A stretch of 23,766 bases of DNA, taken from IMG/VR virus record IMGVR_UViG_3300047175_000135, positions 1-23,766 of that record, one strand, 5' to 3'. This document shows positions 4,527-15,814 of this stretch, piece after piece (within the stretch, counting starts at the first letter, position 1; each line of letters begins with the position of its first letter). The notes beneath the pieces are model-generated. The model saw only the letters and a program-made list of their open reading frames with translations, ran no database searches and had not been told where the DNA came from. The position numbers were made by a program, and so were the translations under genes. The stretch is from a virus.

Positions 4527-6152
4527 TCACACCGGGTACAACGCCTCATTTTGCCGGCCAGGATACACTTTGAGCGATTCGATCTCGGCCAACCGCTCCG
4601 GGCCTCGAGTGAGCATACCCATTTCACGCAATTTTCGCAGTCCCATTGACACGCAGTCCACCAAATCGTCGCGTCTCACGTTTTTGCCGCCAAATGCGGC
4701 CGCCTCGTCGATCACCATCTGCGCCCACGGGCGATCCGGCGCGTAAACCATCCCTTCGGCAAACAAATGCTGCACCGAATAGAGCCTGGCAGTCTTGTCC
4801 TGCGACTTCGGGTCGAACAACACCACGGAAAACTTCTCATTCGAGTACAGGCGCCTGATTTCTTGCGCGACCGAGATGCCCGCCGCCTTGTTTTCGATCA
4901 GCAGCATGTCCAACTTCATCGCAATGGCCGTTTTTGCGACTCGCTGCACCAGTTCGTGCAACTCCAAATGGTCCCGCCACGCGTGCATCATGATTGCATT
5001 GGGCGCACCCTCGTTGTAGACCCGATCAATGAACATCGGCCGGCCGTCCGCATCAATTGAGCGGTTCGCTTGCGCGTTCTGATCCCCCGAAAAGACGCCC
5101 CAGCAAATCATCGCCGAGTAGTCGTTCAAGGTTTTTGTCGTATAGGCCGTATCCAAGCACCCTAAATTGAATTCGGTGGGCGGAAACGTGTCGCGTTCCC
5201 ACAATTTCCAGTAATCCTTCTTGATGATGCCGCCGCCCGCAGGCTCGGGACGCTGCTGCAACTGGCCCGCAGCGATATACGGACCCATCGTGCGTTCCAA
5301 AAACGTGAGTTGCTTGTCTGGAAACCTGGCCGGCCACAGTAATTCGCCCTCGACGGTGCGCGGATCCTTCCAGCCGATGGTCGTGATGAACGATCGGTTC
5401 GACTCGTAGCGCGCCGGCAAGCACAGGTGAGTCCATTCGCCGACGTTCTGCTCCAGAATGTGGCCCGTGAGATCGTTTTCTCCCAGCCGCTGCTGGATGA
5501 TGACGTACGCGCCCGTCGACATGTCGTTCAGACGCGTGGGCATCACTGTATCCCACCATTCAATGGTGGTGAGCGTGGTCGCCTCGCTGGACACTTCGTT
5601 GGCGGCGTTGGGATCGTCGATGACGATGATGTTGCCACCCTCGCCCGTGACGCCGGCGCCGATGGAAGTGATCAATCGCTCGCCGCCTTGGTCGTTGGAA
5701 AATCTGGATTTGGTGTTTTGATCGCTGGTGAGTTGAAATCTGGACCCCCATCGCTCTTGATACCAGTTGGACTCAATCAATCGGCGGCACTTCACCGAGT
5801 CTCGAAGTGACAATTTGTCGTTGTACGAGGCGTACAAGAACGGCACGCCAGGACCGGACGTCGCGCTGCGCTGTGACTGCGCCCACGCCCACGGGGCGAA
5901 AGCAACCGACGTGACAGACGATTTGCCATGCCGTGGCGGGACGTTGATGATCAGTTTTTGAATCTGCCCGTCGACCACCGCCTGCAGATGCTCGCAGATC
6001 GCGTCGATGTGCCAGCCGTCGACCCATGGACTGGAATCCATGTACTTCCACGCGGCCTTCAAAAACTCATACAGCGACTCTTCGCAATCGGCTCTGTCCA
6101 AGTCCAAAAGCTGGAGTCGGGGGTCGATGGATTTGCCTAGCGTGGGGAGCAT
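4527..6152 (-). CDS. terL: Terminase large subunit (ATPase and nuclease)
   Basis: TerL powers DNA translocation into the procapsid through the portal and cuts concatemeric DNA. Numbering from ATG 6152 (541 aa), the Walker A motif VPPRHGKS is at 71-78 and Walker B IIVIDD at 175-180. The C-terminal RNase H-fold nuclease shows the expected acidic triad: D334 (LDTAYTTKTLNDYSA), E420 (LLIENKAAG) and D496/D499 (RRDDLVDC). The N-terminus (DPRLQLLDLDRADCEESLYEF) fits the family. The frame continues upstream to a TTG at 6221, which would overlap a low-confidence ORF. ATG 6152 has GGAGG close by (only 2 nt spacing) and matches the usual N-terminal boundary, so I prefer it. Downstream come three tiny genes and the portal, the standard packaging order. 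Confidence 0.95.
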   Translation of the reverse strand: MLPTLGKSIDPRLQLLDLDRADCEESLYEFLKAAWKYMDSSPWVDGWHIDAICEHLQAVVDGQIQKLIINVPPRHGKSSVTSVAFAPWAWAQSQRSATSGPGVPFLYASYNDKLSLRDSVKCRRLIESNWYQERWGSRFQLTSDQNTKSRFSNDQGGERLITSIGAGVTGEGGNIIVIDDPNAANEVSSEATTLTTIEWWDTVMPTRLNDMSTGAYVIIQQRLGENDLTGHILEQNVGEWTHLCLPARYESNRSFITTIGWKDPRTVEGELLWPARFPDKQLTFLERTMGPYIAAGQLQQRPEPAGGGIIKKDYWKLWERDTFPPTEFNLGCLDTAYTTKTLNDYSAMICWGVFSGDQNAQANRSIDADGRPMFIDRVYNEGAPNAIMMHAWRDHLELHELVQRVAKTAIAMKLDMLLIENKAAGISVAQEIRRLYSNEKFSVVLFDPKSQDKTARLYSVQHLFAEGMVYAPDRPWAQMVIDEAAAFGGKNVRRDDLVDCVSMGLRKLREMGMLTRGPERLAEIESLKVYPGRQNEALYPV

Positions 6153-6198: not shown

Positions 6199-6414
6199 CT
6201 AATTTTCTCCGGGCGCCACAACAGTTAACGATTGCTGCTCGGCCGCCTCAATACAATGGGAAAGGCGGCGAACCCTCTCTTGGAATTCTACTTCGGCGGA
6301 TTGCCAATGAGCGGCGCGCCTGCACTCGCCATGCGCCTCACCTAATCGATGTCGCCATCCGGTTTCGGGGCCGCTGCCTGCGCCTTGGCCTGTCCCAATT
6401 GAAACGGCATCCAC
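6199..6414 (-). CDS. Possible small ORF upstream of terL (uncertain)
   Basis: Between the 95-aa gene and terL an open frame ends at 6199. Its C-terminal half (HWQSAEVEFQERVRRLSHC) reads like a real charged helix, but the only ATG (6414) lies 73 nt inside the upstream gene and has no clear ribosome-binding site. The gap 6222-6341 otherwise has no gene. The frame might be a translated remnant, or chance. I list it at low confidence and assign no function. Confidence 0.3.
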   Translation of the reverse strand: MDAVSIGTGQGAGSGPETGWRHRLGEAHGECRRAAHWQSAEVEFQERVRRLSHCIEAAEQQSLTVVAPGEN

Positions 6415-6629
6415 TCCGCGTACACGCCATCGGTCGGCGGCGTCTCGCCCTCGGCGAGGATCTTGACCGAATTCAATGCGAACGGCAGTCCGTGGTGATT
6501 CGTGCCTCCGACATTGATGGTGCCATCCTCATTGACGAAGGCGACGAGCGCGGCTTCTGGCTGTGAGCCACGCAGTGCGTGTGTGCGCTGACGGATCCAA
6601 ATTACTCGGCCGACTGTTGGGGTGATCAT
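6342..6629 (-). CDS. Conserved-type small phage protein, 95 aa
   Basis: The product begins MITPTVGRVIWIRQR and contains a DGVYAEWMPFQLGQAK stretch. I recall the combination of an N-terminal PTVGRVVW-like strand and a late YAEWMPYQ motif from a widespread small phage family of unknown function, often encoded near terminase or lysis genes. This is memory of a pattern, not a search. The ATG overlaps the preceding stop (ATGA). The C-terminus is Ala/Gln/Pro-rich and ends in acidic residues. Beta-rich soluble protein; function unknown. Confidence 0.8.
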   Translation of the reverse strand: MITPTVGRVIWIRQRTHALRGSQPEAALVAFVNEDGTINVGGTNHHGLPFALNSVKILAEGETPPTDGVYAEWMPFQLGQAKAQAAAPKPDGDID

Positions 6630-6993: not shown

Positions 6994-7586
6994 ATCTCGG
7001 GCGACTCCTCATCCGGGGTGAGCGGCTCGCCATCGCCTCCGTTGGCGATGCGAACCAGCATTGCGCGCATTTGCTGGCGCTCCTCGTATGTCAACTTCGA
7101 GGAATCAATCACGGGCGTCTGCCTGGTCGTGTCCTCGAACTCGACCTTCTTGGTCGCGGGCTTGAATTCCTCGCCGCCGCGGCGCTCCAAGAGCTGCATG
7201 CCGACCTTCGCGTTGTTCGGGTCCGTGAGACTGGTGGCGATCCGCATCATGTTCTTGCTGATGGCCACCACCGCGTGCGCCTTGCCCTCGTCCAATTCGG
7301 TCTGGTAATAGGTGACGACGGTCGACGGCGAGCAGCACAGCAGCGTCGCGATGTATTTGGGCTCAAGGCCCAGCACCGCGTGCTCGCGCACCATGTTCGC
7401 GAAAATGGGCGATGGGTGTTCGCCCACGGTACGCAAAATCTCGATGCGCTCCTCATACTCGCGACGCACCAAGTCCATGCGCTCCTTGAACCACATTGCG
7501 AGCAGTTCGCGCTCGGAACCTTGCGCTTCGGCGACCACCGGCATGCCGTCGGGGACTCGTGGTTTGCGTTTGCGACCGGAGGCCAT
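6990..7586 (-). CDS. terS: Probable terminase small subunit
   Basis: TerS recognises the packaging site and hands DNA to TerL. The 198-aa product (MASGRKRKPR start) has a basic N-terminus. A helix-turn-helix-like segment lies near residues 70-95 (MVREHAVLGLEPKYIATLL then SPSTVVTYY), followed by an alpha-helical stretch (EGKAHAVVAISKNMMRIAT) and an acidic tail. This architecture is typical of small terminases, and the gene is four genes upstream of terL on the same strand with all junctions coupled. A GTG at 7598 is in frame four codons upstream but lacks a ribosome-binding site; ATG 7586 has a weak GAGTAGAG. Function is inferred from fold pattern and position; another HTH protein cannot be excluded. 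Confidence 0.75.
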   Translation of the reverse strand: MASGRKRKPRVPDGMPVVAEAQGSERELLAMWFKERMDLVRREYEERIEILRTVGEHPSPIFANMVREHAVLGLEPKYIATLLCCSPSTVVTYYQTELDEGKAHAVVAISKNMMRIATSLTDPNNAKVGMQLLERRGGEEFKPATKKVEFEDTTRQTPVIDSSKLTYEERQQMRAMLVRIANGGDGEPLTPDEESPEI

Positions 7587-9293: not shown

Positions 9294-9660
9294 CGGCTAC
9301 ATCGTCGGCGCAGGACGCGACCACTCAATGCCCTCTTGCGAGAGCCCCTTCGCATCGTACATGGCCCGATCATGGCGACCGGATGAATCGACCCAGGTTT
9401 TTCTGGTATGGAATTGGGAGGTTTGCCAATTTTTTTGGCGCGATTTTGGGTGGGACCCCTTTTTGAGAATTTTTTGGGGTTTTTTGCGGGTGTCGGAGCG
9501 TTGCGCAGACCGGGTACATAGAGGCTCGAGCGCCAGGAAAAAAGGGGGTACCCGGGGGTCGAAAGCGTGGCCGCTGCGCGCCGGCCGCGTGGTCCGGGAG
9601 CTGTCGGTCCATCTGCGCGCAGACTCGGCTACGCGCGTCCGCGCCAATTTAACTTAATAA
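9294..9660. other. Non-coding stretch with phased T-tracts and a GC-rich palindromic block; possible packaging (cos/pac) or curved regulatory DNA
   Basis: No convincing gene lies here; open frames on the minus strand have no ribosome-binding site and low-complexity products. Plus-strand T-tracts start at 9430, 9444, 9460, 9470 and 9480; the last three are spaced 10 bp apart, as expected of intrinsically bent DNA. They alternate with G runs. At 9538-9560 comes an A6-G5 run followed by a GGTACC-centred GGGTACCC palindrome. The stretch is located upstream of the probable terS-containing operon, where packaging sites can occur, so a cos or pac site is one reading. A nucleoid-protein-bound control region is another. 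Both are inference. Confidence 0.3.
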
Positions 9661-10171: not shown

Positions 10172-10222
10172 ACCACAACATATAGTGTCTCATACCCGCT
10201 CCGACCACAAGATATAGTGGTT
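10172..10222. repeat. 16-bp direct repeat ACCACAANATATAGTG, period 32 bp (operator-like)
   Basis: ACCACAAC-ATATAGTG at 10172-10187 and ACCACAAG-ATATAGTG at 10204-10219 differ at a single base. The 32-bp spacing is three helical turns. The second copy also contains an inverted pair ACCAC/GTGGT (10204-10208 with 10218-10222). The copies lie just left of a DnaA-box pair. Likely binding sites for a regulator or replication protein; no such protein is identified. Confidence 0.55.
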
Positions 10223-10225
10223 TCC

Positions 10226-10245
10226 TGTGGATAACCTGTGGATAA
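10226..10245 (-). promoter_or_regulatory. Pair of perfect DnaA boxes (minus orientation)
   Basis: TGTGGATAA at 10226-10234 and 10237-10245 are exact reverse complements of the DnaA consensus, 11 bp start to start. They point toward the plus-oriented pair at 9756-9776, and a visibly AT-rich segment (about 10280-10338) follows on the right, as in origins where DnaA opens adjacent DNA. Confidence 0.8.
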
Positions 10246-10298
10246 CTTTGCTGCGTCGCCGAAAGTGTCTACCGTAACTGATTGAATATGAATGATTA

Positions 10299-10423
10299 AT
10301 GACACATAGACACATATGACACTATATATAGACACTAATACGGGCGCGCGCACACACGCGCACACGCGCACACGCGCACATAGGGCTATTGGAAATCGGC
10401 ACCTTGATGTGTCTATGTGTCAT
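10299..10423. repeat. 17-bp perfect inverted repeat flanking an alternating tract; GACAC iterons
   Basis: The arm ATGACACATAGACACAT (10299-10315) is exactly complementary to 10407-10423, with a 91-bp spacer. Within and around the arms the pentamer GACAC or its complement recurs: GTGTC at 10265, GACAC at 10301, 10309, 10318 and 10331, and GTGTC at 10409 and 10417. GACAC also occurs inside the -35 region at 10452. These look like iterons or operators for a sequence-specific protein, placed between the DnaA boxes and the rightward promoter. Confidence 0.6.
10344..10382. repeat. 39-bp perfectly alternating purine-pyrimidine (GC/CA) tract
   Basis: From 10344 to 10382 every even position is a purine and every odd position a pyrimidine, built of GC and CA steps with an imperfect CGCGCACA repeat. 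Such tracts can flip to left-handed Z-DNA under negative supercoiling. It sits in the spacer of the 17-bp inverted repeat. No ORF here is credible. Confidence 0.75.
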
Positions 10424-10450
10424 ATCGCCAACAAGATCAGAGGGTTAGGA

Positions 10451-10480
10451 TTGACACACTCAACATTAAGCAAATGTAAT
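10451..10480 (+). promoter_or_regulatory. Candidate sigma70 promoter for the rightward radC-like operon
   Basis: TTGACA (10451-10456) is a perfect -35 hexamer; TGTAAT (10475-10480) is a 5/6 match to -10 with an 18-bp spacer. Transcription would begin near 10487 and give a leader of about 85 nt before ATG 10573. The inverted-repeat arm at 10407-10423 lies just upstream, in an activator or operator position. Confidence 0.6.
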
Positions 10481-10572
10481 GCAAATACTATTGACAGGCA
10501 TTGCTATACGCAAGCGGATATAAGAAAATAGCGGCTACTGGCAAACACGCCAGGTAGGAGAGGACAGCACAC

Positions 10573-11052
10573 ATGCAATTATTCGTAGCAGACCCAACTG
10601 GCAATTACATGCCAGCAAAAGACTCGCAAGTAATCGAGGCAGCTACAGCTGCAGTCGGACGCGCGCTTAGGCGCGGTATTAAATTCTCATCGCCCGCTGT
10701 CGCACGCAAATACCTGCCAGCGATGTTAGGTGCGCTTGAGCATGAAGTGTTTTGCATTGCGCATCTTGATAAGCGCCATAGGCTGATTGCATTCGAGGAA
10801 ATGTTTCGCGGCACAATCGACGGTGCATCCGTATTCCCGCGCGAAGTAGTCAAAAGCGCGCTTAGCCACAATAGCTCCGCATTGATGCTAGTTCACAATC
10901 ACCCGTCGGGCGTGTCTGAGCCGTCGACTGCCGATGAATTGATAACGAAGCGCCTACAGGAAGCCCTCGCGCTGGTAGACATACGGATCATCGACCATTG
11001 CATAGTTGCGGCCGACAAAGTGTTTTCGTTCGCTGAGCAAGGAATGATTTAA
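10573..11052 (+). CDS. RadC-family JAMM/MPN-domain protein
   Basis: The 159-aa product matches the C-terminal RadC (UPF0758) domain. The expected order is present: E58 of EHEVF, a strand pair, PREVVKSALSHNSSALML (about residues 89-106), HNHPSG at 108-113, D121, and a late RIIDHCIVAADKVFSF. The His-x-His...Asp plus upstream Glu is a complete JAMM metal site, so a metallo-hydrolase fold is intact. Full RadC proteins have an extra N-terminal helix-hairpin-helix region, which is absent, as in the YeeS-like versions on mobile elements. ATG 10573 follows GGAG at suitable distance. The biochemical role of RadC proteins is unsettled (the name comes from a mis-mapped allele). First gene of the rightward early-type operon, beside the origin-like region. 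Confidence 0.88.
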   Translation: MQLFVADPTGNYMPAKDSQVIEAATAAVGRALRRGIKFSSPAVARKYLPAMLGALEHEVFCIAHLDKRHRLIAFEEMFRGTIDGASVFPREVVKSALSHNSSALMLVHNHPSGVSEPSTADELITKRLQEALALVDIRIIDHCIVAADKVFSFAEQGMI

Positions 11053-11061
11053 ACCCTTACT

Positions 11062-11088
11062 AATGCGCGCCAGATAGTGGCGCGCATT
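11062..11088 (+). other. Intergenic hairpin 1 (10-bp perfect stem)
   Basis: AATGCGCGCC (11062-11071) pairs perfectly with GGCGCGCATT (11079-11088) around a 7-nt loop. There is no U-run after it, so it is not a standard intrinsic terminator. A TTACAACGGAG ribosome-binding segment follows about 10 nt later. The same layout recurs at 12472-12497. Confidence 0.7.
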
Positions 11089-11115
11089 GTTGAGTGTTTA
11101 CAACGGAGCATGCAC

Positions 11116-11343
11116 ATGAAATTCGACACGGCAACAATTAATGGCGACGACGGCACCAAAGCCGGATTTGACTTAAACTTGACAATCCTAGAGCGCGATG
11201 ACGGCAAATTCTTCATCGCTGCGCCAGATCACAATCTAGAACCGGTGTTCGATTCCCACGAGGCGTGCGAGGAATACATCCTCACCAGCTATAGCGCGCC
11301 AATCTGGGATCTGCGACTGCAACTACGCGGCGTGCAATTGTAA
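11116..11343 (+). CDS. Hypothetical protein, 75 aa
   Basis: Several ATGs are in frame; ATG 11116 is best placed, 7 nt after GGAG (11105-11108). The product (MKFDTATINGDDG...) looks like an alternating beta protein with a central helix (SHEACEEYIL). It has no cysteine pair motif and no membrane segment. It follows hairpin 1, which may modulate its expression. No family recognised. Confidence 0.7.
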   Translation: MKFDTATINGDDGTKAGFDLNLTILERDDGKFFIAAPDHNLEPVFDSHEACEEYILTSYSAPIWDLRLQLRGVQL

Positions 11344-11350
11344 CCGCGCT

Positions 11351-11437
11351 ATGAACGATAACACCACAATCAGCACTTTTCAGCTTTTCGAGATGTTCCC
11401 CGATCAAGGATATGAAAATGCTAACAGGTATCGTTAA
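11351..11437 (+). CDS. Possible 28-aa ORF overlapping the next gene
   Basis: ATG 11351 opens a 28-codon frame whose product contains STFQLFEMFPDQGYENA, which reads like protein. It ends at 11437, 17 nt beyond the start of the next gene, and has no obvious ribosome-binding site. The FELFPD-like motif reminds me of the N-terminus of IS1595-type transposases, so it may be a fragment, or a leader peptide for the following gene. Low confidence. Confidence 0.25.
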   Translation: MNDNTTISTFQLFEMFPDQGYENANRYR

Positions 11438-11810
11438 GGCTACGCGAGCGCACTATGCCGCGCTTCAGCACAGGCCCAGTCCGGAGCGCGAAGCACTAGA
11501 CTTCGAAGTGTCGACCGACACATCTGTATTGCTGGCCGGAACTATTCACGTAAAAACGAAAGTGTTTGGCATTCCCTATAATTTCACTACGCTTAAAGTG
11601 TCGAATGCACGGCGCAAGGCGGAAGTGACAAAACTCACGAATCGCTTGCAGTCGATGTACCCTGAATCAACGCACATACACTGCGCGTATCGGCATGATA
11701 GCGGCGCCGCGCGAATCACAATGCGGTCTATGACGCACAGTCGGCCGGACGCGTCGCACGTCGCCATGCGCGATAAATGCATTAAGCATTGGACTGCGCG
11801 TCATGAATAA
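11418..11810 (+). CDS. Hypothetical protein, 130 aa
   Basis: Two ATGs (11412, 11418) lie close together; AAGGA is 1 nt from the first and 7 nt from the second, so ATG 11418 (MLTGIVKATRAHY...) is the likely start. The protein is basic and His-rich toward the C-terminus (RSMTHSRPDASHVAMRDKCIKHWTARHE). A central beta-rich part (AGTIHVKTKVFGIPYNFTTLKV) is followed by a helix. A basic C-terminus suggests nucleic-acid contact. No family recognised. The downstream gap to 11865 contains only a ribosome-binding site and leader. Confidence 0.68.
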   Translation: MLTGIVKATRAHYAALQHRPSPEREALDFEVSTDTSVLLAGTIHVKTKVFGIPYNFTTLKVSNARRKAEVTKLTNRLQSMYPESTHIHCAYRHDSGAARITMRSMTHSRPDASHVAMRDKCIKHWTARHE

Positions 11811-11864
11811 GACGCAAGCTAGCGCCATTGTCGGAGCTATCACCAACATTAGGAGAATCAACCA

Positions 11865-11993
11865 ATGAACGAATATCACACCGTTGTCTATCACTCTAGC
11901 GCTTGGGAAGGCATGGTATCGCGCGGCTATATCACTGCGTTTGTAGAGGAACTGTGCGGCGTACGCGTCGCATTCATGTTGTTTGTCCGCTAG
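11865..11993 (+). CDS. Hypothetical small protein, 42 aa
   Basis: ATG 11865 follows AGGAG at an ideal distance (AGGAGAATCAACCA leader). The product starts MNEYHTVVYHSSAWEG and ends VAFMLFVR; it is mildly hydrophobic and ends abruptly. A nearly identical leader (AGGAGAATCGACC) precedes the next gene, suggesting a duplicated translation-initiation cassette. The short length and abrupt end could mean a truncated gene. Function unknown. Confidence 0.55.
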   Translation: MNEYHTVVYHSSAWEGMVSRGYITAFVEELCGVRVAFMLFVR

Positions 11994-12003
11994 ATACTTG
12001 CGT

Positions 12004-12031
12004 AATGGCCGTGCGACGTCGCGCGGCTATT
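12004..12031 (+). other. Intergenic hairpin 2 (12-bp stem, 4-nt loop)
   Basis: AATGGCCGTGCG (12004-12015) pairs with CGCGCGGCTATT (12020-12031) around ACGT; ten Watson-Crick and two G-U pairs. It starts with TAATG and ends in ATTG like hairpins 1 and 3, but with different interior sequence. No U-tract follows. It lies 11 nt after the stop of the 42-aa gene and about 35 nt before the next start. Confidence 0.7.
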
Positions 12032-12065
12032 GCGGAAACATCTAACACCACCAGGAGAATCGACC

Positions 12066-12461
12066 ATGTCAACTCGCGCTGTATATACCTTCATCGGCGA
12101 GGATAAGGAAACACATCACGTCTATAAGCACCATGACGGTTATCCGTCTGGCGCTGCAGATGCAATTGCAAATGCACTCCCGTATGCATGGCCATTGCCG
12201 CGTTTTGAGCCTGACGAGTTTGGAGCGGCATTCGTTGCTGGAAACAAGTCCCAAGGTGGCGGAGTGCGTCTTACGCGGCATTGGGATAATCACGGTGACC
12301 TTAAATACCGTTACGAGATATCGCTCCGTAACAGTCGGCTGCGCATCGTCGCGTACAGCGCCACCTATGGCGTTGCGCCAGACTACAAGGTTACATGGGA
12401 GAAAATCTACGCGGGAGACTTGGCAGGATTCGCCGAGTTCGCAAAGCGCGCTGCAGCGTAG
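12066..12461 (+). CDS. Conserved-type phage protein with HHDGYPSGAA motif, 131 aa
   Basis: ATG 12066 follows AGGAG at good distance and gives MSTRAVYTFIGED. The product then has VYKHHDGYPSGAADAI near residues 20-35, AWPLPRFEPDEFGAAFVAGNK near 42-62, GGGVRLT and WDNHGDLKYRYEI. I recall this block order from a common phage and prophage family of unknown function whose members begin MSTRA and carry a YxHHDGYP signature; this is recall, not a search. Probably an intracellular early protein. No catalytic site is evident. Confidence 0.82.
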   Translation: MSTRAVYTFIGEDKETHHVYKHHDGYPSGAADAIANALPYAWPLPRFEPDEFGAAFVAGNKSQGGGVRLTRHWDNHGDLKYRYEISLRNSRLRIVAYSATYGVAPDYKVTWEKIYAGDLAGFAEFAKRAAA

Positions 12462-12471
12462 GCGCTTCATT

Positions 12472-12497
12472 AATGCCAGCGCACGCAGGCTGGCATT
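12472..12497 (+). other. Intergenic hairpin 3 (9-bp perfect stem)
   Basis: AATGCCAGC (12472-12480) pairs with GCTGGCATT (12489-12497) around an 8-nt loop. It lies 10 nt after the preceding stop and is followed by GTGGAG and then CTTACAACGGAGG, closely paralleling the sequence after hairpin 1. No U-tract follows. Confidence 0.7.
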
Positions 12498-12528
12498 GTG
12501 GAGGCACTTACAACGGAGGATAGGAAAA

Positions 12529-12798
12529 ATGGAAAACTACACGACAATAGCCGGCCGATGCATCACGCGCGGCGGAATTCCCTTTGTGACGCTGCAGAAA
12601 TGCGCCGACGTCTCACCGACCGACGCGGACACTTTCGCGCGCGCGGTCCCCCAAGTAATAAATTCACTGCGGGATGTGTGCGATACGGTCCAGCAGATTC
12701 TAGACAATTGGAGTGCTGGCGATTTGGCCAATGCGGTTAACAACGCGGAAGAGGCCATGCAAACCGCGCGCACGATTTTGGCAACCATAGGAGGATAG
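12529..12798 (+). CDS. Hypothetical helical protein, 89 aa
   Basis: ATG 12529 follows a GGAGGATAGGA leader. The product begins MENYTTIAGRCITRGG, then is almost wholly helical (ADTFARAVPQVINSLRDVC, IQ/Asn/Ala-rich NAVNNAEEAMQTARTILATIGG). The early segment (IPFVTLQKCADVSPTDADTFARAVP) resembles a short phage family seen near early genes, function unknown. It ends 4 nt before the next start. The leader is unusually rich in GGA triplets, relevant to the CsrA homologue encoded later in the window. Confidence 0.75.
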   Translation: MENYTTIAGRCITRGGIPFVTLQKCADVSPTDADTFARAVPQVINSLRDVCDTVQQILDNWSAGDLANAVNNAEEAMQTARTILATIGG

Positions 12799-12802
12799 GA
12801 CA

Positions 12803-12994
12803 ATGCGCACACAGACAAGTATCGACCTTCGGACGGCTCGCGAGCATGCGGCCGACCTGGGTGTTGAATGCACAATCGAGGTCAACGGTGCCGGCGACGA
12901 ATGGACGATCATCATGGACACGGGCGAAGTTGAGCACGCGGCGGGACTGCCGCGCGTCTTGGCCATCCTTTCCGCGTATGCGGTGCAATCATGA
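12803..12994 (+). CDS. Hypothetical protein, 63 aa
   Basis: ATG 12803 is preceded by AGGAGGATAGGACA, with several GGA triplets. The product (MRTQTSIDLRTAREHAADLG...) has one helix, a beta-rich centre (CTIEVNGAGDEWTIIMDTG) and a second helix (LPRVLAILSAYAV). This alpha-beta-alpha layout is compact and soluble. Its TGA overlaps the next ATG as ATGA. No family recognised. Confidence 0.75.
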   Translation: MRTQTSIDLRTAREHAADLGVECTIEVNGAGDEWTIIMDTGEVEHAAGLPRVLAILSAYAVQS

Positions 12995-13077
12995 TTAACC
13001 CCATGGTCTGGTACTGGCTGGCGTCTGCCGCCATCGTCGTGGTCTGCGCGGTGGCGATAATGGAGGATCGGCAATGA
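12991..13077 (+). CDS. Tiny single-pass membrane protein, 28 aa
   Basis: A 28-codon frame starts at 12991 (ATGA overlap with the preceding stop) and ends at 13077 (overlap with the next ATG). The product (MINPMVWYWLASAAIVV...) is one hydrophobic helix, then a short charged end EDRQ. Its last codons also contain the GGAGG Shine-Dalgarno for the next gene. Exact coupling on both sides makes it a credible microprotein. Confidence 0.6.
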   Translation: MINPMVWYWLASAAIVVVCAVAIMEDRQ

Positions 13078-13304
13078 AGTCTTGTCATCTCGAGATGGGC
13101 TACCACGACGCCTATATGGCGGGTCAGCACAAAGCGGACCGCGACCATTACATACAGAACGCGCGCGTTGAAATGGTGCCCGAATGCAAAAGCCATTGGG
13201 TGATGGCCGCTCGCCGCTCACACCGCAATTACCTGAAATCCTTGCGGATGGCGCTTAACTCAAGCAACGGGGGAAAATCATGGTACGCGAATCTCATACG
13301 CTAA
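13074..13304 (+). CDS. Hypothetical basic protein, 76 aa
   Basis: ATG 13074 has GGAGG 7 nt upstream. The product (MKSCHLEMGYHDAYMAGQHK...) is rich in His, Arg and Lys and helical, ending in SWYANLIR. It overlaps the next gene by 25 nt. The basic, His-rich composition suggests RNA or DNA contact, but no family is recognised. Confidence 0.7.
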   Translation: MKSCHLEMGYHDAYMAGQHKADRDHYIQNARVEMVPECKSHWVMAARRSHRNYLKSLRMALNSSNGGKSWYANLIR

Positions 13305-13576
13305 CCTGCCCGCAATGCGCCGGCACAAAGCGAGCGCATTTTGATAACCCCAAGAATTGGGCTATCGCCGGATATGATCCAGCGACCTCGACTGTCCCTT
13401 GCGACAATTGCGGCGGACAATACCAGTTCGAGGCTCCCACAGGCCTAGTCCCGCCGCGGCGCGACAATGGCGAGCGGTGCTTGCACGCGTATACGGGCCG
13501 CAAAATCGGCAATTGCCTGTACGAGTACACTTGCACGCATTGCGCAGATCGGCACACTATCGATTCTGGCGACTGA
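13280..13576 (+). CDS. Small zinc-ribbon-like protein, 98 aa
   Basis: The product has CPQC at residues 10-13, CDNC at 41-44, and a C-terminal CLYEYTCTHCADRH with two more cysteines and histidine; a further single C lies near 67. This gives two probable zinc sites resembling treble-clef or rubredoxin-like knuckles. The centre includes VPCDNCGGQYQFEAPTGLVP. It is the last gene of the rightward operon, 24 nt before an intrinsic terminator. Likely nucleic-acid binding, by analogy with small zinc-knuckle phage proteins. Confidence 0.75.
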   Translation: MVRESHTLTCPQCAGTKRAHFDNPKNWAIAGYDPATSTVPCDNCGGQYQFEAPTGLVPPRRDNGERCLHAYTGRKIGNCLYEYTCTHCADRHTIDSGD

Positions 13577-13599
13577 GTTTCCCTCGTGAGTGAGTGTTA

Positions 13600-13629
13600 G
13601 CGCGTCGCATGCCGGGCGCGCATTTTTTT
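13600..13629 (+). terminator. Intrinsic terminator of the rightward 10573-13576 operon
   Basis: GCGCGTC (13600-13606) pairs with GGCGCGC (13615-13621), one G-U pair, loop 8 nt, then A and seven T (13623-13629). It lies between converging genes; the last Ts form part of the primase stop codon on the other strand. Only the plus orientation has the U-tract. Confidence 0.8.
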
Positions 13630-15814
13630 ATTCGGTGCGCTCGAGCTTCTTCCATTTGCGGCCGCTCGAGTCCTTGATTTGGACCCAGTTATTTTCCCGC
13701 ATGATCCTGGCAATGCGCCGCTTTTCGGAATCCGTCTGGCGCGCGAGCGGCAGATCGATCGCATCCTTCAGGATTCGCGCGGACGTAATATCGATGCGCC
13801 GCCCTGTGCGTGTCGTTTCGGCCCAGAGCTCCGTCACGTAATCGATCACGGCATCGGACCATAGGTCTGGCGTCGCGCGCTCGAGCTGTTCGGCGTCCGC
13901 GCTCCCCGGGACCTGCCACCAAGACGCGCCCCCTCGATATCTTTGGACAGCTTCGGCGAATATCTGCTCACGCTGAGCCCGCAGCCCGTCTAAATCGATT
14001 TCCTTGCAGCGGAGCGGCCAAAATCGGCGCCGGCCGCGCGTGTCCTGCAGGTAATCGTCCGTCTCGGAGGTGGCCGCAAATATGGCCGTACGAGGATGGT
14101 CCTCGACATGCCGGCCGTAGGAGGCGCGGTAACTGTCGTTGCGGATGGCGATTGTCGCCAGAATTTGCGAGTGTTCCCGCTTTGAGAATCCGGTCATGTC
14201 GGGAATTTCGACCAGCCATCGGCCTTGGATACCCTGCAGAAAATCCTTATCTCCGAATGCACGGTCAAGCGCCACATACCAGGGCGCGCCCAAGGCCTCC
14301 AAAAACGATGATTTGGACAGACCTTGCGTGCCCTCCAAAACGGGCAGCGTGTCAGCCTTGCAGCCTGGTACGAAGGCTCGAGCGACCATCGAAATGGGCC
14401 AATTGACGCCAACAGCTTGCGTGTATTCTGTGCTGGCGACGCCCAAGGTATCTGACAGCCAATGCGGCAGCCTTTCTGTGCCGTCCCATTGGATTGAACT
14501 TAACCAATCGGTCAGCGAATTGCGCGCGTTGACTCGAGCCGCATGGGAGACGGCCGCCGCGACCAGCATCACGTTGAATTTTGGGAGTTTGAGCCCTTGC
14601 TGAATTTTCACCGTCAGGTCGACGTCATCGGCATCTGTCCACGGCAGTTCGGCTCCGCGTAGCCCATGCATGACCTTGCCCGTGAACAGGTCGAGCCAGA
14701 TTTTGCCGCGCAGCTCGGGGTGCATCTGGATAATCAAGCTGGCATTCGCCACGGTGGCGTGCGGCTGGCCTCCCTCGTTAGAGTCCAGTCCCATGCTAGA
14801 CCAGCTGACGAACGCCGAGCCGTGGGTCTCAGCGGCGGCCGGGAGCGTCTCAGCTTTGCGGGGTTTCGGTTCGCGTTTTGGCGGTTTCGTTTCCGCCGGC
14901 GTCTCAACGGTGGTCACATGCTTTGTCGCCCATGTGGCGATCGCCGCGGCATCCCACCCGGCGGCGACAGCGTCGGCCACGTCCCAGCCGTCCGCTTGGC
15001 CATTCGGCTGTATCACGCGCACGCGCCGGGCAATCGGCAGCAGCAGTGCGGCGAGCTCGGCCGCGGCTTTCTTGCCCGGTTCGTCGGCATCCGGCCAGAT
15101 CAGCACGTCCCGATCCGCCAAAACGCTCCAATCCGATTTGCGCACCGCCTGCGCGCCACCGGCCCATGTGACTACTTGGTAACGTAGAAGGGTCTGGGCG
15201 GCGAGCTCGGCGCATTTCTCGCCCTCGACGACCAAGACGGAGCAGTCGTTGCGGGCTGCGGACTCGGGTGCGTAATACAGGGGTTTTGGATCCGGATAGC
15301 CTTTGGCGACCCACCGGCCGCCGCGCCACGTATACGGGCGGAAGCTTTTGCCGTCTGGTGTGTCCCACCGGGCGACCCAAAACGCGTTGCCATAGCGATA
15401 AACGGCGCTTGGCGCCCCTAAACGCCGATCCTCAGGGATTGGTGGCGCATCGCGCGGGATCGGCTCTGCAGGCATCTCCGGAGGTTTTACGGGGGGCAAG
15501 ACGGTCCCCTTTGGCGCATGCGCGCCCACCATTTCGGCCACCGCACCCAATGCCACGATCTGCTCCACGTGATTTAAGGCCGCGTAGAGGCTGACGAGGT
15601 CGCCGCCTTTCTCGTCACCTGAGCCATGTAAAAACGCGCCCGTGGCGAGGTTGACCTTCCACGAGTCGCCTAGGCCTCCGTTGGCGCGTCGCTCCCCATG
15701 CCACTCATTTCCAACCTTTTTTCCGCCAAGCCATTGGGGCAGAAGCACCATCGCCATTGCTAACGCTTGGGCTGCAACATCCTCGAATCGAACGGATGCT
15801 GGCACGCTTTTCAT
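13628..15814 (-). CDS. Primase-helicase (TOPRIM-like plus VirE/D5-like P-loop ATPase), 728 aa
   Basis: This fusion should prime and unwind phage DNA. The N-terminus (residues ~35-80, WKVNLATGAFLHGSGDEKGGD) matches the region that follows the zinc domain in phage primases, but no Cys cluster is visible. A TOPRIM-like domain has VVEGEKC at 195-201 and WPDAD at 240-244. After a Lys/Pro-rich linker (~305-330) comes the VirE/DUF-type ATPase domain: IQWDGTERLP near 441, P-loop GTQGLSKSS at 495-503, Walker B LVEIPDM at 534-540, and a DTRGRRRFWPL block at 591-601 that supplies an arginine near the active site. The P-loop has Ser where the usual Gly precedes Lys. The start ATG overlaps the 44-aa gene by ATGA; no strong ribosome site, so coupling is likely. 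Confidence 0.9.
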   Translation of the reverse strand: MKSVPASVRFEDVAAQALAMAMVLLPQWLGGKKVGNEWHGERRANGGLGDSWKVNLATGAFLHGSGDEKGGDLVSLYAALNHVEQIVALGAVAEMVGAHAPKGTVLPPVKPPEMPAEPIPRDAPPIPEDRRLGAPSAVYRYGNAFWVARWDTPDGKSFRPYTWRGGRWVAKGYPDPKPLYYAPESAARNDCSVLVVEGEKCAELAAQTLLRYQVVTWAGGAQAVRKSDWSVLADRDVLIWPDADEPGKKAAAELAALLLPIARRVRVIQPNGQADGWDVADAVAAGWDAAAIATWATKHVTTVETPAETKPPKREPKPRKAETLPAAAETHGSAFVSWSSMGLDSNEGGQPHATVANASLIIQMHPELRGKIWLDLFTGKVMHGLRGAELPWTDADDVDLTVKIQQGLKLPKFNVMLVAAAVSHAARVNARNSLTDWLSSIQWDGTERLPHWLSDTLGVASTEYTQAVGVNWPISMVARAFVPGCKADTLPVLEGTQGLSKSSFLEALGAPWYVALDRAFGDKDFLQGIQGRWLVEIPDMTGFSKREHSQILATIAIRNDSYRASYGRHVEDHPRTAIFAATSETDDYLQDTRGRRRFWPLRCKEIDLDGLRAQREQIFAEAVQRYRGGASWWQVPGSADAEQLERATPDLWSDAVIDYVTELWAETTRTGRRIDITSARILKDAIDLPLARQTDSEKRRIARIMRENNWVQIKDSSGRKWKKLERTE

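Follow-up and report, generated by a model that had tools for sequence, protein, structure and literature searches.

What do three long hairpins, each filling a gap between genes of one viral operon, do for the message that would contain them, and are they copies of one element? The window analysed here covers an entire IMG/VR virus record (23,766 bases), in which no end repeats were found. Its minus strand carries portal and large-terminase genes at the left and, further right, genes for a VapE-like primase/helicase, a methyltransferase and a helicase; an exonuclease VIII-like gene and an SbcC-like gene lie on the plus strand at the right end. A rightward operon of small genes, the first of which is RadC-like, lies between 10573 and 13576, and three of its gene gaps hold one long hairpin each (E1, E2 and E3).

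10573–11052, plus strand: RadC-like JAB-domain gene, 5' of E1 (Pfam PF04002, E 3e-41)
11050–11100, plus strand: hairpin E1, 51 nt (-28.3 kcal/mol, z -7.7)
11098–11108, plus strand: TTACAACGGAG, end of E1 and Shine-Dalgarno of the 11116 gene
11116–11343, plus strand: 75-aa gene 3' of E1, no family found
11865–11993, plus strand: 42-aa frame, 5' of E2
11991–12044, plus strand: hairpin E2, 54 nt (-32.8 kcal/mol, z -6.2)
12052–12057, plus strand: Shine-Dalgarno region CAGGAG of the 12066 gene, 3' of E2
12066–12461, plus strand: 131-aa gene between E2 and E3, unnamed MSTRA...HHDGYPSG family
12458–12511, plus strand: hairpin E3, 54 nt (-31.6 kcal/mol, z -4.7)
12508–12518, plus strand: TTACAACGGAG, end of E3 and Shine-Dalgarno of the 12529 gene
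12529–12798, plus strand: 89-aa gene 3' of E3, no family found

Build and placement of the three hairpins

An earlier sequence-only reading had placed hairpins with common TAATG...ATTG ends at these three sites, and our analysis recovered all of them with those ends. The stems were present but longer than the 10, 12 and 9 bp first given: the inner stems alone measure 12, 15 and 10 bp, and the whole elements 51, 54 and 54 nt. E1 consists of an outer stem (TAAAC/GTTTA), a middle part (CTTA/TGAG), the inner 12 bp and a 5-nt loop; E2 of an outer stem (TAGAT/ATCTA), a 2x2 mismatch, TT/AA, a G.G mismatch, the inner 15 bp and a 4-nt loop; and E3 of an outer stem (GTAGG/CTTAC), a middle part (GCTTC/GAGGC), a 2x2 mismatch, the inner 10 bp and an 8-nt loop. 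The helices contain 23, 25 and 23 opposed positions, respectively, with similarly placed mismatches, and are the three longest among the inverted repeats listed for the window.

The hairpins had been described as starting just after a stop codon; instead, the stop codon sits in the outer stem, and TAATG begins 11–12 nt past its first base. The first triplet of E1 is the stop codon TAA (11050–11052) of the RadC-like gene, that of E2 is the stop codon TAG (11991–11993) of the 42-aa frame, and E3 includes the stop codon TAG (12459–12461) after one extra pair. On the other side, the Shine-Dalgarno of the next gene begins 3–8 nt 3' of each stem. As noted earlier, TTACAACGGAG follows two of the hairpins, and no U-tract was found 3' of any of the three stems, where CAACGGAG, ACACCACC and AACGGAGG stand instead. 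The gap at 11811–11864 in the same operon contained no hairpin of this kind.

Comparison with shuffled sequences revealed that none of 200 shuffles reached a minimum free energy as good as those of E1–E3, and that hairpins this strong, seen three times in the 3.06-kb operon, occurred with a mean of 0.018 and a maximum of 1 in 1000 dinucleotide shuffles. TAATG..ATTG alone was weakly informative (5 occurrences across the window vs 1.8 expected), and the folding energy of E1–E3 was itself ordinary when compared with G+C-rich coding parts of the window; their unusual feature is the long, almost unbroken helix that fills a gene gap. Among the three copies, 6 of 18 pairs differed at both bases yet still paired, and only 2 of 500 shuffles gave as many. 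The suspected structured RNA with paired changes is supported by this count and by the family to which a model of the three copies led.

Two other parts of the region are worth recording. The protein encoded at 12066–12461 belongs to a family with an invariant MSTRA start and an HHDGYPSG motif, present in at least 38 viral contigs (L011–L048) and five genome contigs; the window member matched nothing in Pfam or PHROG, and the protein encoded at 11412–11810 had no relative in IMG/VR. The untranslated stretch at 10175–10430, between divergent operons, contains TATAGTG/GTGTCTA-type repeats with inverted copies (GACACATAGACACATATGACAC ... GTGTCTATGTGTCATA) and a CA/CG-rich simple repeat, and looks like an operator or origin region.

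Related hairpins in two other contigs

A covariance model built from E1–E3 only (R1) was searched over 56 sources (0.65 Mb), and its best match outside the window was L044:7380 (22.1 bits, E 0.05). L044 (IMGVR_UViG_3300046725_000025) is a phage contig chosen for its relative of the 12066–12461 protein (37% identity), which is located amid that contig's hairpins. Searching relatives with a model of the three copies, the check originally proposed, found a match, but at this E value the link is weak.

Analysis of L044 revealed six clear hairpins with the layout of E1–E3, at about 5364, 5654, 7387, 8048, 8907 and 9764, besides a degenerate one at 9359 and further, weaker copies. Their consensus is TRACRCTTGNACY..stem..RGCTKGAATYGTTA, followed in each of the six by GGAGCTGAA and a start codon, and the start region GGAGCTGAAC is itself conserved. 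All six fold into an outer stem, a mismatch, UU/AA, G.G, 2 bp, C.C and an upper stem of 10–12 bp. In their alignment 97.5% of cells pair, 10 of 20 pairs are changed on both sides (no shuffle was equal) and pairing is lost once the partner is slid along, a statistic that is partly expected for copies that had been found as hairpins. A sequence pattern leaving most of the upper stem free then identified a single copy (2331–2375) in L200 (IMGVR_UViG_3300044500_000058), which opens at the stop codon (TGA) of a 52-codon frame, retains an intact upper stem and reaches 45 bits when scored by the L044 model; because of that free upper stem in the search pattern, L200 is a cleaner check than L044.

The reverse search used a model from the L044 copies (R2). 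Over 0.65 Mb, L200 excluded, its best match outside L044 was E1 of the window (19.8 bits, E 0.14); run unfiltered on 23 kb, R2 found E1 (E 0.005), E2 (0.01) and, weakly, E3 (3.3), with exact register. Although the link between window and L044 is reciprocal, it is weak, because the shared hairpin shape and Shine-Dalgarno feed the model scores; by sequence, common descent and convergence on one design are both possible. Loci totalling about 1.9 Mb were scanned with a descriptor combining stop codon, hairpin, Shine-Dalgarno and open frame, and only the window and L044 gave at least three hits in one record. The element, earlier called specific to this operon, is thus known from three contigs: the window with three copies, L044 with a family of six or more and L200 with one.

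Over these ten copies, the helix spans 21–25 stacked positions, of which 1–3 are mismatched. What stays constant is a length of about two helical turns, the placement from stop codon to Shine-Dalgarno and a mismatch-bearing lower stem; upper-stem sequence and loop (3–8 nt) vary. The stop codon of the upstream frame lies inside the element in 9 of the 10, the exception being L044:8907, where that frame stops 32 nt earlier and TGAC is kept. Stop-to-start distances are narrow (63–81 nt), and E1–E3 and the L044 copies end 3–18 nt 5' of a Shine-Dalgarno.

Other searches gave no relatives. About 75 loci were collected through proteins related to RadC, TerL or the 12066 protein, and whole-record model searches (R1 on 13, R2 on 50 of them) produced no convincing match. 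The window had no match in Rfam 15 at the gathering threshold, and at E up to 5 the 10200–13700 region gave one weak match, not at the hairpins. Nucleotide searches found nothing for the hairpin region in annotated phages or for the L044 region in phages and plasmids, and BLAST of the elements against named phages returned short chance matches only. Window-type DNA patterns in IMG/VR likewise gave chance matches only; the first L044-type pattern matched 34 stretches there, with copies only in the L044 contig itself, and the L044-type pattern had no exact match in the species-genome collection. A genome scan with protein alignment yielded five loci, none with the hairpin family.

Several features around the elements were recorded separately. 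The conserved TAATG of E2 and E3 (window 12003 and 12471) is a second in-frame stop codon 12 nt past the first, absent in E1 and L044. A role for TAATG as overlapping stop and start codons or as the start of a leader peptide was dropped, as it is not kept in L044, and stop-codon read-through into the next gene was dropped in view of random frames and in-frame stops. L044 5290–5367 is a 25-codon frame with a MTLVLLACAISG-like hydrophobic start, whose stop codon is exactly the one in the first clear hairpin; it possibly encodes a very small phage protein. The L044 gaps 5905–5975, 7037–7085 and 9359–9445 hold hairpins off the consensus; those at 7037 and 5905 have a common GGCCG/CGAAACGCGCA...GCGCGT design and may represent another class of hairpin in front of the same start sequence. 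In L200, tandem TGACA...TGTCA repeats (CAAGTGACAAAAATTGTCACTTTCTGACACGAATTGTCAG...) at 1915–1980, 5' of the hairpin-bearing operon, are likely operator sites.

Likeness to known elements

Integron attC sites form an imperfect hairpin after each gene, with a conserved lower part, a variable upper stem and often a stop codon inside, and the present hairpins likewise have a constant lower part, a variable upper stem and a stop codon inside. However, the attC core boxes GTTRRRY/RYYYAAC (compared by eye with the consensus) are absent from the window copies and not general in L044: the L044 right ends are mostly GTTAACC, and the window ends are TAAAC/GTTTA, TAGAT/ATCTA and GTAGG/CTTAC. In the window, moreover, it is the top strand that folds better, as RNA, which also differs from attC.

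The descriptor applied to phage T7 picked the hairpin at 6414–6452, before gene 1.3, known as RNase III site R1.3. The T7 RNase III sites resemble the present hairpins in lying between early genes, several per operon, with a Shine-Dalgarno shortly 3' (6414–6452), but their stems are shorter or broken by a bigger internal loop, and the stop codon is not where they begin. Cleavage has been demonstrated at the T7 sites and is a prediction for the present hairpins.

In the SAS/ESAS system of Cluster K mycobacteriophages, a 13-bp start-site sequence occurs in 11–19 copies, about half of them after imperfect 17-bp inverted repeats; its authors considered RNA hairpins poorly supported and preferred an explanation by DNA-binding proteins (PMC3203893). 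Similar repeats occur in Microbacterium phages of clusters EF and EG (PMC7302621). The likeness comprises several copies per phage, a position before non-structural genes, gene orientation and an imperfect inverted repeat 5' of the start, and in L044 also the conserved GGAGCTGAAC and the hairpins before many genes. ESAS arms, however, follow one consensus per subcluster, whereas the upper arms found here differ but still pair, and the element includes the upstream stop codon. TM4, our ESAS yardstick, has nearly alike arms in its two clearest repeats, in agreement with its authors' view. No 13-mer of the SAS kind (GGGATAGGAGCCC) was common to the three window copies, E1 and E3 sharing TTACAACGGAG and E2 having CACCAGGAGAATC. 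Because two defining SAS/ESAS features were tested and not found, we do not place the window in that system.

Candidate functions

Our best guess is that E1–E3 are a repeated structured RNA element that would act in cis on the polycistronic message. Among specific functions, we tentatively put first an intercistronic RNA processing or stability site of RNase III type, because the duplex length fits, the enzyme has a minimum of about 22 nt and the descriptor matches in T7. The two-turn helix would be a double-strand-specific processing site for host RNase III or a similar enzyme; a cut would split the operon message, the downstream piece would start just 5' of a free ribosome-binding site, and the upstream piece could end in a protective stem, as at the T7 intergenic sites. 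A nuclease measuring duplex length fits because the helices are almost equally long, although their loops and the sequences of their still-paired upper stems differ. Published work puts the smallest RNase III target at about 22 nt of duplex and names RNAs of phages T7, T3 and lambda as substrates (PMC5371410); the span of 21–25 positions agrees with a duplex of about 22 or more. Several copies per operon, placement in gene gaps and the lack of a U-tract also favour processing. RNase III alone, however, leaves unexplained the conserved lower-stem mismatches (C.U, G.G and C.C in L044 and L200) and the built-in stop codon. The gap at 11811–11864 without a hairpin also speaks against processing, as do the different internal loop of the T7 sites and the resistance of several long duplexes to RNase III in vitro, where 8 of 19 were not substrates (PMC5371410).

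The built-in stop codon counts instead for a role in translation, which we consider possible but less probable than processing: the hairpin might insulate or couple neighbouring genes, keep the start region free of upstream pairing, bring the stop codon near the next Shine-Dalgarno, or bind a phage protein that controls initiation. Consistent with this are the stop codon inside 9 of 10 copies, the Shine-Dalgarno within 3–8 nt in the window and the narrow stop-to-start distances of 63–81 nt. The lower mismatched arm (11–13 nt) would also approximate the footprint of a terminating ribosome, the fixed mismatches suggest a bound factor, and the conserved L044 start region GGAGCTGAAC recalls the Cluster K start-associated sequences (PMC3203893). 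On the other hand, the Shine-Dalgarno lies outside the hairpin and is therefore not sequestered, no candidate binding protein was found, and a bound factor alone would not set the upper-stem length. A broader proposal, about as tentative as the translational one, is a new structured-RNA class: a stop-codon-anchored, modular intercistronic hairpin, set between genes as a unit by phages of different lineages, whose mismatched lower stem would be read by a factor (ribosome, nuclease or phage protein) while the upper stem is free.

A DNA-level element, whether a repeated operator, a recombination site or a mobile palindrome with an incidental RNA form, is unlikely. In the case of ESAS, precisely positioned repeats of phage operons were interpreted as DNA-binding sites (PMC3203893), and the L044-type sequence occurs in L044 and L200, contigs without detectable shared genes around it. 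We rate it lower because the upper arms differ between copies with pairing kept, of which a duplex operator has no need; furthermore, every copy lies in a gene gap, in one orientation. The gene-strand fold of E1–E3 is more stable than the reverse-strand fold, and over the ten elements opposed G.U outnumbers A.C by 21 to 3, favouring gene-strand RNA (sign test p 1e-4, supportive only, with non-independent copies and a register taken from the RNA fold). Conserved mismatches, G.U over A.C and gene-strand orientation together point to mRNA rather than a DNA operator.

Still less probable is graded expression along the operon by means of a transcription pause, attenuator or Rho-linked partial terminator. 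Strong hairpins between genes would suit it, but the combination of G+C-rich stem and U-tract that marks an intrinsic terminator was not found in E1–E3, all three of which lack the U-tract and have a Shine-Dalgarno directly 3', and long imperfect two-turn helices are unlike the usual terminator shape. That the hairpins are unrelated, by chance or independent origin and without common function, is very improbable: the window has three copies only, their sequence likeness is short and neither the window model nor the L044 model matches the other contig strongly (E 0.05 and 0.14, respectively, in searches of about 0.65 Mb), but 0.018 such hairpins were expected in the operon, each of the two models has its top outside hit in the contig of the other, the copies have in common their position at stop codon and Shine-Dalgarno, and the L044 consensus recurs in L200 with its stem intact.

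Reports of recurring inverted repeats at the starts of phage genes date back to 2011. The upper arms that vary while pairing is held indicate that, in these phages at least, the RNA hairpin joined to a stop codon is what selection keeps, and the order of stop codon, two-turn helix and ribosome-binding site provides a search rule for other phages. The hairpins resemble punctuation that phage messages can use repeatedly, probably as a signal for cutting or insulation.
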